Assembly: GCA_022827625.1 (NCBI GenBank)
Contig: JAJEIE010000036.1
Span: forward strand, 1 to 60,872
Source of the DNA: Candidatus Poribacteria bacterium
Lineage (GTDB): Bacteria; Poribacteria; WGA-4E; WGA-3G
Direction of reading: 5' to 3'
DNA: 60,872 nucleotides
Shown: positions 8,874-14,658 of the stretch, piece after piece
Position numbering within the stretch: the first letter of the stretch is position 1
How the letters are laid out: every line of letters begins with the position of its first letter
The notes under the pieces: model-generated
Database searches by the model: none
What the model was told of the DNA's origin: nothing
Seen by the model: the letters and a program-made list of their open reading frames with translations, nothing else
Translations under genes and position numbers: made by a program

Positions 8874-11027
8874 CTATAGACTGAAGAGATAGGTAAATTT
8901 GCTTAACACTGTCCAGTCGCGCGCATGCAAACCTTCAGACGCATCCCATGCCTGATCATACACAAGGTAAAAATCGCTACCTGGGCGATAGATGTAATTA
9001 ATCAAAAAATTGGCACTTGCGCGTTTGGCATCGTCGTTCCACTGTGCGTACAGTTTGGTAAAGAAACGGGTGTTCAACGCATAACTGACACGCGTCCCGA
9101 CAACGTTTGTCGTGAACAGATCAGTTTCAGGTAAGTTAATCCAGTTCCGCTGATAGCGCACTTCGATCGCGAGTTGGTAGGTCATCCGCCACTGGCTATC
9201 GAGGCTCAGACTCACGCGATCGCCGTGAAAGTAGTCTCCGTAATCCACTTGGCAAAATGAGGAAAACGGACGACTGGTTTGGGTGAAAGTGGTGAGCGAG
9301 ATTTGGTTCATCTCATAATCACCGGCGGGAATCTCAACATCACCGACGCTGAAGGCTTCATCAACGCGATCAAAAAACCGTCGGAAATCGAGGTTAAACC
9401 CATCGTCAGAGTCCCAAAGCATACTTCCACCAAGTCCCATGTCCCAACCGATGAGCATATTATCGTGATCCAACAAGTAACCGCCGGTGAACATCGCTCC
9501 GACCTCTCGGACACGATAACGGTTAATTTGAACTTCATAATCAGCGTTCAACATCAACGATCGGATATCTCTGCGCTGCATGAACCCCATTTGACTCGTA
9601 AATTGCGGACCGATGTCGAGATAAGAAGCGTTGATACGAAAGTAGTCGTTGCGCCAGTCGTTCGAGAGATACCACGCGAAATCGCGTTCATCTGGATCCG
9701 GGGACCAGCTGCCAACGGTCATAGCGCGCATCCGCCACTGATCGTGCGGTCGAAAAAACAGATCGACTCCACCGTTACGATGGTAGTTTCCACCCGAATC
9801 ACTTTGCCGATTGGTGAGAATAAAGCCCATGGTTGAATCACTCAGTATATCTCGCTGCATTCTGAGTACAGAGAAGTTCGTCATCGGTGATTCCGTCGAA
9901 GCGGCAGTTGTCATATTGAGCGCGCCGACACTATAGGGTCCAACCTTCCCTGTGAGTTTACCGCCACCAAGCAGCCGGACCTGTTGTTCGTCTTCGATAC
10001 CGATCCGGCGACTGTAAAAAACAGACAACGGCGGCGGACCGAAATCTCCGATGCCCGCGCCGAAGGCGAACAGTCCACTGCCTTCAAGAAAGAATTCACG
10101 ACGTTCTGGGAAAAAGAGATCGAACCGTGTGAGGTTGACTTCTTCCTGGTCCGCCTCTACCTGTGCGAAATCGGTGTTTACAGTCAAGTCCAATGTCAGG
10201 TTTGACGTTATCCCGTATTTCATATCAAGTCCGAGGTCGCCTTCGGTCGTCCGCTGCCAAATTGTGTCGTCGAGATTCCTTGCCAACCCACCGAGGAGAT
10301 ACGGTTTGACATCAAAATAAGATGGTGATGCAATGCTTTGGAGTCCAATCACTTTGCCTTGATACGTGGGGTGATAGGTGCCGGGCCAACTCTCACTTCG
10401 GGGTACTTGTATCCATTGCGATGTTTCATTCTTCCGTGCGATGTTGCGTCCGAAATTCACGCCCCATACCATCGCATCGCTCTTTTTGAACCGTAGCTGA
10501 TTGAAAGGAATCGCGATTTCAACCGTCCACCCTTTATCGTGTCGCCGGCCGCCAGCCTCCCAGATACAGTCCCAACTCCCGTTAAGATTTTCGCCACCGT
10601 CTGTGACAGCCGTGTCTGACAGCGCACCGAGCGCATTCGTCCGAAAGAAAAAGCATTGTCGTTTATCGCCGTAGGTATCGAGCATCACGTAAACGTTATC
10701 ATTTTGCCAAAGCTGCCCGTCGCGCCGCATTTCGTTCGCAACAACCTTTTCGGGTTCGGAATCATAGCATTCAAATCCGATATACAGTTTCTCTGTGTCA
10801 TACAACATCCGCACCTCAGTGCGTTCGCTAATCGGTTGTCCTTCAGCGGGTGATTGTTGGATAAAGTCGTCAATGATCTGTGCCTCTGTCCAAGCCGCTT
10901 CATTGAGATGTCCATCAAGTTCGATTGTTTCTTGCGTTAGCAACGGTCTAATTTCTTTGCTGGCTCTGGCGTTTAAATTTATTGCTGCAATCACTACGAA
11001 TACCAATAAAGTTATTCTGTAACGCAT
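8874..11027 (-). CDS. DUF5916 outer-membrane beta-barrel protein with CBM9-like N-terminal domain
   Basis: A 717-residue exported protein. The start at 11027 is preferred over an in-frame ATG 57 bases upstream because GAGGAGAAAAG sits directly before it and a signal peptide follows at once (RYRITLLVFVVIAAINLNA). After the signal comes a carbohydrate-binding family-9-like domain (about 25-220; IELDGHLNEAAWTEA). A long DUF5916 region of alternating strands then ends in a Leu-terminated strand, consistent with a beta-barrel. Motif FFPERREFFLEGSGLF is characteristic of the family. The role is unknown, possibly ligand binding or uptake at the outer membrane. Transcription probably begins near 11322, leaving an unusually long leader. 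Confidence 0.9.
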   Translation of the reverse strand: MRYRITLLVFVVIAAINLNARASKEIRPLLTQETIELDGHLNEAAWTEAQIIDDFIQQSPAEGQPISERTEVRMLYDTEKLYIGFECYDSEPEKVVANEMRRDGQLWQNDNVYVMLDTYGDKRQCFFFRTNALGALSDTAVTDGGENLNGSWDCIWEAGGRRHDKGWTVEIAIPFNQLRFKKSDAMVWGVNFGRNIARKNETSQWIQVPRSESWPGTYHPTYQGKVIGLQSIASPSYFDVKPYLLGGLARNLDDTIWQRTTEGDLGLDMKYGITSNLTLDLTVNTDFAQVEADQEEVNLTRFDLFFPERREFFLEGSGLFAFGAGIGDFGPPPLSVFYSRRIGIEDEQQVRLLGGGKLTGKVGPYSVGALNMTTAASTESPMTNFSVLRMQRDILSDSTMGFILTNRQSDSGGNYHRNGGVDLFFRPHDQWRMRAMTVGSWSPDPDERDFAWYLSNDWRNDYFRINASYLDIGPQFTSQMGFMQRRDIRSLMLNADYEVQINRYRVREVGAMFTGGYLLDHDNMLIGWDMGLGGSMLWDSDDGFNLDFRRFFDRVDEAFSVGDVEIPAGDYEMNQISLTTFTQTSRPFSSFCQVDYGDYFHGDRVSLSLDSQWRMTYQLAIEVRYQRNWINLPETDLFTTNVVGTRVSYALNTRFFTKLYAQWNDDAKRASANFLINYIYRPGSDFYLVYDQAWDASEGLHARDWTVLSKFTYLFSL

Positions 11028-11103
11028 CTTTTCTCCTCTTTTAAGGTTTTTCTTGCCTGCAAACATGGTGCCTTTTGTTGTCATGTTAAAAAAGAAACAC
11101 CCT

Positions 11104-11328: not shown

Positions 11329-11358
11329 ATTATAGCACATTTTGCCCTTGAATGTCAA
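11329..11358 (-). promoter_or_regulatory. Consensus sigma-70 promoter driving the DUF5916 gene
   Basis: On the minus strand a perfect TTGACA (11353-11358), an 18-bp spacer and a perfect TATAAT (11329-11334) with extended -10 TGC. It is among the strongest promoters in the window and lies about 300 bases from the start codon. Confidence 0.75.
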
Positions 11359-11490
11359 ATTTTTTAGGAATTCCTGATAGAATTCTATAACAGTATTTAA
11401 CCTTCGATTTTTTGAAAAATTCACATTTTTTCAAGGAAAACGAAATAACTTGCAACAAAAAATGAAACGGAATGGGAGGGCACCTGCACA

Positions 11491-11547
11491 TTGAAAGTCA
11501 GAACCTGTTGTTTCATCTTATGCGCAATCATGCTCACGATCGGATGA
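11491..11547 (+). pseudogene. Signal-peptide-coding segment ending at an in-frame TGA
   Basis: TTG at 11491, with GGGAGGG 10 bases upstream, opens a typical hydrophobic signal sequence (KVRTCCFILCAIMLTIG) that stops at TGA (11545-11547). The frame then continues without interruption (ADTENPNSIKASDEAE...) into the 11632-12012 ORF. TGA occupies the position where a lipobox Cys (TGC or TGT) would be expected after TIG. The simplest reading is a lipoprotein gene with a nonsense mutation. Sequencing error or readthrough are alternatives. Confidence 0.55.
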
Positions 11548-11631
11548 GCTGATACTGAAAACCCTAATTCAATTAAGGCTTCGGATGAAGCAGAGACTGA
11601 GGTTATCATCACTGAGCAGCCAAACCGAGAC

Positions 11632-12012
11632 TTGACTGAAGAAGCGAGCGGAAAAAAAGTGATTGCGCATCTGGAAAAGTATCTTCAACTCAAGGCAGAA
11701 GATTCAGATGCCGCATACGCTGAACTCCGAAAATCTGCCGATTTCACATGGTGGGAGCATCCGCTCTCTGAGCAGTGGACACAACTTACGTTTCGTATGG
11801 ATACAGCGGGGAAAGCTTTTATAATGGATATGATTCAGCGCGTTGAATTAGAACTTCAGATGGCTAAGGATCGCGGCCCCTACAAAGAACAGGTGACCTA
11901 TTTGGAAGGTCGCTTGCAATTCTGGAAAGACAGGAAAGAACATGCCGAAGCGGAGGGACGCAACCCTCGCGAGGCTGACATTAAGTTCAGCATAAGGATT
12001 GAGGAGGATTAA
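11632..12012 (+). CDS. Charged helical hypothetical protein, probable mature part of an interrupted lipoprotein
   Basis: 126 residues from a TTG codon that lacks a good ribosome binding site. The true gene probably began at 11491 with a signal peptide cut off by TGA (see 11491-11547). The body is rich in Glu, Lys and Arg and predicted helical (AHLEKYLQLKAEDSD..., ELEL.MAKDRG), with no recognisable domain. The 3' end GAGGAGGATTAA contains the Shine-Dalgarno of the next gene, whose ATG follows the stop directly. The two are therefore translationally linked and probably functionally related. Function unknown. Confidence 0.5.
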   Translation: MTEEASGKKVIAHLEKYLQLKAEDSDAAYAELRKSADFTWWEHPLSEQWTQLTFRMDTAGKAFIMDMIQRVELELQMAKDRGPYKEQVTYLEGRLQFWKDRKEHAEAEGRNPREADIKFSIRIEED

Positions 12013-14658
12013 ATGGCTTTAGAGAAACTTGATGGGGCAAATAGAAAGAGGCTATTCGGACTATTGACTTTGATAGTCTTCTGCTCCTGCGCGCCGATAG
12101 CGTATCAACTGGTTTCTGAGAAACCTGTCGCGCCGATAGAAAACTTAATATCCGAAGAAATAAGAGATTCTATAGTATTAATTGAGAGTGAAAATGGATA
12201 TGGTACAGGTTTCTTCGTTACACCAGACAAGATTGCAACGAGCATTCATGTCGTTGCGCACGCGGGTCCGGTTTTTGTAAAGTCTCCTGACAAGGCGAAA
12301 AATTGGGCAATAGAGGGTGTTACTGGATTTGATATAGCAAATGGTATCGCCATCTTAAAGGTTGCCGGTGAAGGCGTACCGCTGTCTATAATGAGCAGTG
12401 GGACAGCGCAAATTGGTGAGGCCATATCTATTCCGAGTTACGCCGATGAAGAATACAAAGTCACAGGAGGCAGTCTACAAAGCATCCGAAATAGTGATAA
12501 ACGGCTTAGAATACGAACGACGACTTCTAAAGAGCCTGATGGTAGTCCAGTGTTTAACAATAACAGACAGGTCATTGCGATTATCGTGTTGTATGGTAAT
12601 GACCCTTACAGTTATGCGATGCCTTCCAGTGTCCTTGAGGCATTGCTTGACCCGTCTCTGCCAATAGAATCTTTGGCGGAATGGCAGAAACGGGAACATG
12701 TTCGCGCTGCAGCTTACTACGGTTTAGCAAAAGAAAAATTAGATGCCAAAGATTATGCTGGAGCCATAGTTAACCTTGATAAAGCGATTGAACTGAACTC
12801 TGAGTATCTCTGGGCACACTACGAGCGCGGCAGAGCTCAGGTTTACCTTAATGACTATGACAGCGCGATTGCCTCCTGTACCCGAGTTATTAAAATGGAT
12901 CCTGATGCAGCTGATGCTTACAATGCCCGAGGGATTGTAAAGGTTGACCTTGGTGACTATACTGATGCGATTGTTGACTTTGATAAAGCCATTGAACTTG
13001 ACGCTCAGTATGCGAGTGCTTATGTTAATCGAGGAGTTGTGAAGCTCATACTTGGTGAATCTGAGACCTTCCAAGGAAATGCTAAGGCAGCACAGCCTTT
13101 ATATGAAGCGGCGATAGCCGATTGTGATAAAGCCATTGAACTTGACGTTAAGCATAGTAAGGCTTATCGGAATCGAGGGACACTGAAGTTTAGACTTGGT
13201 GAGTTTGAAACCATCCGCGGGAATGCTAAAGCAGCGCGGCGTTTATATGAAGCGGCGATAACTGATTGTGATAAAGCCATTGAGATTGACCCAGAATATG
13301 CAGATGCCTATAGTTTTCGCGGGGCTGCAAAGTCGGCTCTTGGCGACCCTGAGGAGGCAATACTTGATGTCAATAGAGCTATCCAGATTGACCCGGAGTA
13401 TGCGAATGCTTATAGAAATCGTGCAAAAGTGAAATGTGAACTTGGTGATGTTGAATCCAAGCATGGTAATGCGGAGAAGGCACAGAAGTTGTATCACGAA
13501 GGCATTACTGAATATGAAAAATTCATCCAGATGAACAAATCACAGGATACAGATGTGAAGGCAGTGGACTTGGGGTTTACAAATGGTGGGACTTCTACGG
13601 TGCACATAATGGGTTGGAGCGCAACCATAGGCAACTTCTTCACCGGTAGCGGTTTCTTTGCAGACAAAGACAAGATTGTAACAAACATCCATGTCGTTGC
13701 CTTGCCTGGTGTTGTTTTTGCCAAACTCACAGACAGAGAGGTGATCTACCCAATTGAAGGTGTCACGGCGTTTGATGCAGGAGACGATCTCGTCATCTTA
13801 AAAATAACGGGTGAAGGCACACCACTATTCTTGGGTGATAGTGATATGGTTCAAAGCGGTGAACGTGTTATTGCTGTGGGATATCCGAGCAGGAGATACA
13901 AAGTCATAGAGGGAACTATAGACGGCATCCGGAATACCGATAAGTGGCTACGAATGAAAATTGATATTACTGGTGGAAGTAGTGGCAGTCCTACGCTAAA
14001 TAGTAAGGGGCAAGTCATAGGAATTAATGCCGCTAAGTATAAGGACTACGCTTACGCCATTCCCTCAAATGCGCTTAAGACGCTACTCGCTCGGTCGAAA
14101 CCAACGGAGCCTTTGATAGAGTGGCAAAAACGTGATCCTATCCGTGCGTATGCTTACCATGCTCAGGGACATCTTAAAGGTGTGATCGGTCACTACCGTG
14201 GAGCGATAGCTGATTATGATAAAGCTATTAAGTTAAACCCTAAGACTCGCCATACCTACTACCTGCGTGGAAATCTAAAAGCTGCTTTGGGTAAACATAA
14301 GAAAGCAATAGCCGATTATGATAAAGCTATCCAACTAAATCCTGAAGATTTTGAGGCCTACAAGACTCGCGGTGCCGTGAAATTCAGTCTTGGCAAACCA
14401 GAACAGGCAATACTTGATTATAACAAGGTTATTCAACTCGACCCAGATAATGCTGATGCCTATAACAATCGCGGGATGATGCGGTTTCGTTTTGGCGCAT
14501 CTGAATTCTCACGCGGGAATGTAGACCAAGCAAGAGAATTATATGAAAAAGCGATTGAAGACTATACCCAAGCTATCAAATTAAATCCGGAGGACACCGA
14601 GGCTTATAGTAATCTGGGTGCCGTAAAGTCTGCCCTTGCGGCTATGCTCAAACAGTAG
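12013..14658 (+). CDS. Tandem trypsin-like (Deg-type) domain / TPR protein, first protease domain inactive
   Basis: An 881-residue envelope protein. N-terminal hydrophobic segment (residues 14-28) ends in FCSCAP, either a lipoprotein signal or an anchor. Order: trypsin-like domain 1 (50-210), TPR block (about 228-510), trypsin-like domain 2 (520-695), TPR block (700-875). Domain 2 has a full triad: H560 (TNIHVVA), D592 (DDLVILK) and S657 (GGSSGSP). At the aligned positions domain 1 keeps H79 but has G111 and D176 (KEPDGSP), so it should be catalytically dead. The TPRs (GDYTDAIVDFDKAIELD-type units) suggest protein-protein interaction. ATG directly follows the upstream stop, with GAGGAGG as its SD. 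The substrate is unknown. Confidence 0.88.
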   Translation: MALEKLDGANRKRLFGLLTLIVFCSCAPIAYQLVSEKPVAPIENLISEEIRDSIVLIESENGYGTGFFVTPDKIATSIHVVAHAGPVFVKSPDKAKNWAIEGVTGFDIANGIAILKVAGEGVPLSIMSSGTAQIGEAISIPSYADEEYKVTGGSLQSIRNSDKRLRIRTTTSKEPDGSPVFNNNRQVIAIIVLYGNDPYSYAMPSSVLEALLDPSLPIESLAEWQKREHVRAAAYYGLAKEKLDAKDYAGAIVNLDKAIELNSEYLWAHYERGRAQVYLNDYDSAIASCTRVIKMDPDAADAYNARGIVKVDLGDYTDAIVDFDKAIELDAQYASAYVNRGVVKLILGESETFQGNAKAAQPLYEAAIADCDKAIELDVKHSKAYRNRGTLKFRLGEFETIRGNAKAARRLYEAAITDCDKAIEIDPEYADAYSFRGAAKSALGDPEEAILDVNRAIQIDPEYANAYRNRAKVKCELGDVESKHGNAEKAQKLYHEGITEYEKFIQMNKSQDTDVKAVDLGFTNGGTSTVHIMGWSATIGNFFTGSGFFADKDKIVTNIHVVALPGVVFAKLTDREVIYPIEGVTAFDAGDDLVILKITGEGTPLFLGDSDMVQSGERVIAVGYPSRRYKVIEGTIDGIRNTDKWLRMKIDITGGSSGSPTLNSKGQVIGINAAKYKDYAYAIPSNALKTLLARSKPTEPLIEWQKRDPIRAYAYHAQGHLKGVIGHYRGAIADYDKAIKLNPKTRHTYYLRGNLKAALGKHKKAIADYDKAIQLNPEDFEAYKTRGAVKFSLGKPEQAILDYNKVIQLDPDNADAYNNRGMMRFRFGASEFSRGNVDQARELYEKAIEDYTQAIKLNPEDTEAYSNLGAVKSALAAMLKQ

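Follow-up and report, generated by a model that had tools for sequence, protein, structure and literature searches.

The interrupted frame and its surroundings

The window, that is, the whole stretch of 60,872 nucleotides analyzed here (contig JAJEIE010000036.1, Candidatus Poribacteria bacterium, a member of a sponge-associated candidate phylum), belongs to a genome of 5.0 Mb in 41 contigs that is 95% complete. No tRNA gene was found in the window. The frame at 11491-12012 reads MKVRTCCFILCAIMLTIG, then TGA, then ADTENPN and on through 154 stop-free codons to a TAA at 12010-12012, and the gene for an 881-residue TPR-trypsin protein begins immediately 3' of this stop (Table 1). The initial annotation had described a signal peptide, a TGA, and a frame that then stays open, and both the coordinates and the reading were confirmed when re-derived. 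It had also called the Shine-Dalgarno sequence good; the GGGAGGG motif is real, but we rate it as fair, because it stands 10 nt from a TTG. Both the TTG start and the GGGAG are also present in the nearest relative (G035). The first in-frame start after the TGA is a TTG at 11632, which opens a reading frame of 126 amino acids. As had been claimed, this start lacks a ribosome binding site: the preceding bases, CCAAACCGAGAC, contain no purine-rich Shine-Dalgarno sequence and do not resemble one.

Table 1. Features at and around the interrupted frame (window coordinates)
Feature	Position	Strand	Remarks
Conserved non-coding leader	11394-11468	+	Occurs in the majority of genomes of the genus, usually next to the divergent gene 8874-11084
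Shine-Dalgarno-like GGGAGGG	11474-11480	+	10 nt 5' of the TTG start; GGGAG retained in G035
Signal-peptide codons, MKVRTCCFILCAIMLTIG, with TTG start at 11491-11493	11491-11544	+	Alignable with the signal peptides of related lipoproteins
In-frame TGA at the lipobox +1 Cys position	11545-11547	+	TGC in the G035 orthologue
Remaining frame to the TAA: linker and all-helical domain of a poribacterial lipoprotein family	11548-12012	+	dN/dS of 0.24 against G035
Intact downstream gene (881 aa) with two Trypsin_2 domains and numerous TPRs	12013-14658	+	Own Shine-Dalgarno, GAGGAGG

The leader of about 75 nt upstream of the frame reads ATTTAACCTTCG...TGAAAAATTCAC...TTTTTTCAAG. It has one or two matches per genome, with differing genes downstream, and may be a conserved leader or have a regulatory role. 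On the minus strand, window positions 11329-11358 hold a perfect sigma-70 consensus (TTGACA and TATAAT separated by 18 nt, the latter preceded by TG), which faces the divergent gene at 8874-11084. A sigma-70 scan upstream of the interrupted gene gave no convincing plus-strand promoter.

The TGA occupies the lipobox cysteine position

Homologue searches covered 98 genomes, and a profile scan was run over 85 genomes of the phylum. Relatives of the domain downstream of the TGA were found in 26 of the genomes searched and, with the profile, in 28 of the phylum genomes; the loci matched by the family in the named genome collection are from Candidatus Poribacteria metagenome-assembled genomes (MAGs). 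Read from their own starts, most relatives are small proteins with a short K/R start, a hydrophobic run, and a signal peptide whose last residues are Gly-Cys or another lipobox of this kind, such as FIGC (G016, 49% identity), STGC (G012 and G008), ALGC (G041), LPGC, VLGC, SSC, and NTGC. Since the relatives share this architecture within one open frame, the signal peptide read at 11491-11544 is not a product of chance. Family members without the lipobox Cys are mostly larger and have a different type of signal peptide, and some carry a TlpA-like thioredoxin domain, as judged by eye. In three loci of related genomes (L008, L010, and L017), the helical domain is repeated and placed before the TlpA-like thioredoxin domain, again by eye.

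The TGA of the window aligns with the lipobox Cys column of the relatives. An automatic count over the lipobox-bearing relatives gave 10 TGC, 8 TGT, and no TGA at this site, and the four NTGC copies, which the pattern used for the count overlooked, carry Cys as well. Apart from the window copy, no copy with TGA at the site was found in the scan of 85 phylum genomes. One row of that scan (G011) was considered as a second case; by its coordinates and translation, the TGA there is the codon that terminates that gene.

The nearest relative (G035:C44) reads CTCGGATGCACCGAC, with GGA TGC ACC GAC opposite GGA TGA GCT GAT in the window. Its genomic arrangement is that of the window: a divergent gene of the 8874-11084 type, the leader, the lipoprotein gene, and the TPR-trypsin gene. 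Because this orthologue at the same genomic place has TGC, the ancestral codon at 11545-11547 was most probably TGC, one base from TGA. The site is accordingly best read as the +1 Cys of an ancestral lipoprotein, since the relatives that keep this N terminus have TGC or TGT there. Thus, the proposal that the TGA replaces a lipobox Cys through a one-base difference is supported by the comparison. Neither homologues with TGA here and no upstream signal peptide nor homologues starting at the equivalent of 11632, which the initial annotation had named as evidence against itself, were found in the 85 phylum genomes.

An undescribed family of small helical lipoproteins

The structure prediction for the helical domain is of good confidence (mean pLDDT of 90.6) and has five helices and two short strands. 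A Foldseek search against the PDB returned no match at an E value of ≤0.001, Pfam and NCBIfam offered no credible family for the domain, and it had no match in a phage collection. The family is an undescribed one of small helical lipoproteins, found here only in Poribacteria. Its position before the TPR-trypsin gene gives no firm functional clue, because the intact relatives examined are not located before such a gene.

Decay of the locus in related genomes

Where intact homologues have a sense codon, the window has a stop, and the same locus is decaying in relatives. The G035 copy is broken in three ways: its signal peptide has gained one nucleotide, about 190 nt have been lost, and close to the 3' end there is an insert of about 125 nt. 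In G022 (L034), the leader, 78/78 identical to window positions 11394-11471, runs straight into the final ~60 nt of the gene. The junction lies at the short repeats GAAACGGA and GAAGCGGA (window positions 11464 and 11947), which suggests that this stub arose by deletion between them. The locus in G024 (L036) is similarly reduced to a 3' stub.

The dN/dS ratio of the window copy against G035 was 0.24 over 75 codons, from which it follows that the frame was probably coding until recently. The only other family copy detected in the host genome (G000:C15:51768-52121, L002) has a 1-nt deletion in the signal peptide relative to its counterpart in G031 (L090), with the remainder well preserved and a dN/dS ratio of 0.18 against that counterpart. 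By these ratios, both copies had been under selection. It is mildly coincidental that both family lesions of this genome fall in the signal peptide, and two are too few to argue from.

Taken together, it is highly probable that 11491-12012 is the gene of a small secreted lipoprotein that was recently inactivated by a nonsense mutation, that is, a pseudogene. Among the three options left by the initial annotation (a recent nonsense mutation, a sequencing error, and a decoded TGA), the comparative decay of the locus favors the first. Judged from the orthologue, a single substitution of TGC to TGA would have turned the lipidated +1 Cys into a stop. Translation from the TTG at 11491 would then end in an 18-residue signal-peptide stub, and since the frame offers no later start preceded by a ribosome binding site, the helical domain would not be produced in useful amounts. 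The TPR-trypsin gene, with its own Shine-Dalgarno sequence, is still intact, and the lipoprotein itself may have become dispensable. A random nonsense mutation landing on precisely the Cys codon would be a modest coincidence: 81 single-base changes in the coding sequence can create a stop, 18 of them giving TGA, so a hit on this codon is expected in about 1 of 80 cases. What speaks against a nonsense mutation is that the mature part is well kept with no second lesion and that the host can decode UGA as selenocysteine (Sec); with the mature part in this state, an assembly error or a decoded TGA would look alike.

An error of sequencing or assembly, with TGC or TGT as the true codon and an intact gene, is unlikely. 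The lone lesion within an otherwise preserved frame would agree with it, as would the probable metagenomic origin of the assembly, the named relatives being MAGs. The C15 copy is likewise one base off its relative in the signal peptide, although that deletion lies beside a short T run and could more easily be an error than the TGA. However, the lesion in the window is a substitution, which is less typical as an error than a homopolymer indel, and more than 40 long frames are open elsewhere in the window. In addition, three related genomes decay independently at this locus, and their deletions cannot be base-call errors.

It is very improbable that the gene still works in two parts, either through the 126-residue frame from 11632 or through low-level readthrough of the UGA without Sec. 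The mature part is indeed conserved in a frame that stays open, but this conservation mainly predates the lesion. No relative begins at the position of the unsupported TTG, and a product starting there would lose export.

Selenocysteine decoding

Sec decoding needed to be tested because the host has tRNA-Sec(UCA), SelA, SelB, and a SelD gene that bears a TGA. The UGA-decoding tRNA that the initial annotation had suggested looking for is thus present in the host genome, with the anticodon UCA; SelA is present, and SelB adjoins the tRNA-Sec gene. SelD (L066, G000:C40:54720-55643) has an in-frame TGA (KCAG-TGA-ASKL). As a selenoprotein gene in its own right (KCAGU), it has a strong stem-loop resembling a SECIS, and the Sec system of the genome is complete. 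A TGA paired with Cys in relatives is the usual signature by which selenoproteins are found (PMC1088965). In the Sargasso Sea selenoproteome study, such TGA/Cys pairs were screened for bacterial SECIS elements, which were predicted in all of its bacterial families (PMC1088965).

SelD served as the positive control for the fold of the RNA 3' of the TGA. Over the 40 nt that follow its TGA, the folding energy is -14.5 kcal/mol (z score of -2.5), with a G in a small apical loop. For the window, the same length gave -4.4 kcal/mol (z score of -0.6), and the best fold reached -8.5 kcal/mol (46 nt, z score of -1.5), the z scores overall ranging from -0.5 to -1.5. The G035 copy, which has TGC at the site, gave -8.4 and -10.0 kcal/mol, values equal to or better than those of the window. 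No SECIS-like stem-loop with a G in a small apical loop was found directly 3' of the window TGA, where the fold is weak and AU-rich. A literature search combining selenocysteine and lipobox returned, by title and abstract, nothing on Sec at a lipobox.

At the lipobox, the Cys carries the lipid anchor and has no redox role, and to our knowledge Sec would therefore bring no gain there. Decoding of the TGA was a fair suspicion given the machinery, but the SECIS and conservation tests both went against it. A selenolipoprotein, carrying Sec where the +1 residue is lipidated and needing a SECIS outside the usual model, is thus very improbable despite the complete machinery and the TGA/Cys pairing, since the fold is weak, the bacterial families of the Sargasso Sea study all had predicted SECIS elements, and no relative shares the TGA. 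Because the relatives show Cys and other forms of decay in the same gene, the frame almost certainly represents an ordinary broken gene rather than a hidden selenoprotein.

Implications and comparison with known systems

A TGA opposite a conserved Cys in a Sec-capable genome is exactly what selenoprotein screens catch, and the present case calls for caution, as the Cys concerned is a lipid anchor in a decaying gene. It would also illustrate how a lipoprotein gene restricted to one lineage disappears from a single genomic place in stages, by a nonsense mutation in the window, by a frameshift, a deletion, and an insert in one relative, and down to stubs in others. If the selenolipoprotein were true after all, anchoring and export would depend on selenium.

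Like bacterial selenoproteins such as the host SelD, the window copy has an in-frame TGA opposite the Cys of its relatives, in a genome with Sec machinery; unlike them, it has no SECIS-like stem-loop and no relative with TGA, and the site is a non-redox position. With type II (Lgt/LspA) lipoproteins, it shares the short K/R n-region, the hydrophobic run, and the Gly before +1. It differs from them in its lipobox, T-I-G-x against the textbook L-x-G/A-C, and in having TGA where Cys should follow at +1, so no lipoprotein is predicted from this copy. With the poribacterial family itself (G016, G012, G008, G041, and others), it shares the architecture and conserved residues, at about 30 to 50% identity for the closer members. 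Those copies are intact, stand in other neighborhoods, and in some cases occur in tandem, whereas the copy in the window is interrupted.
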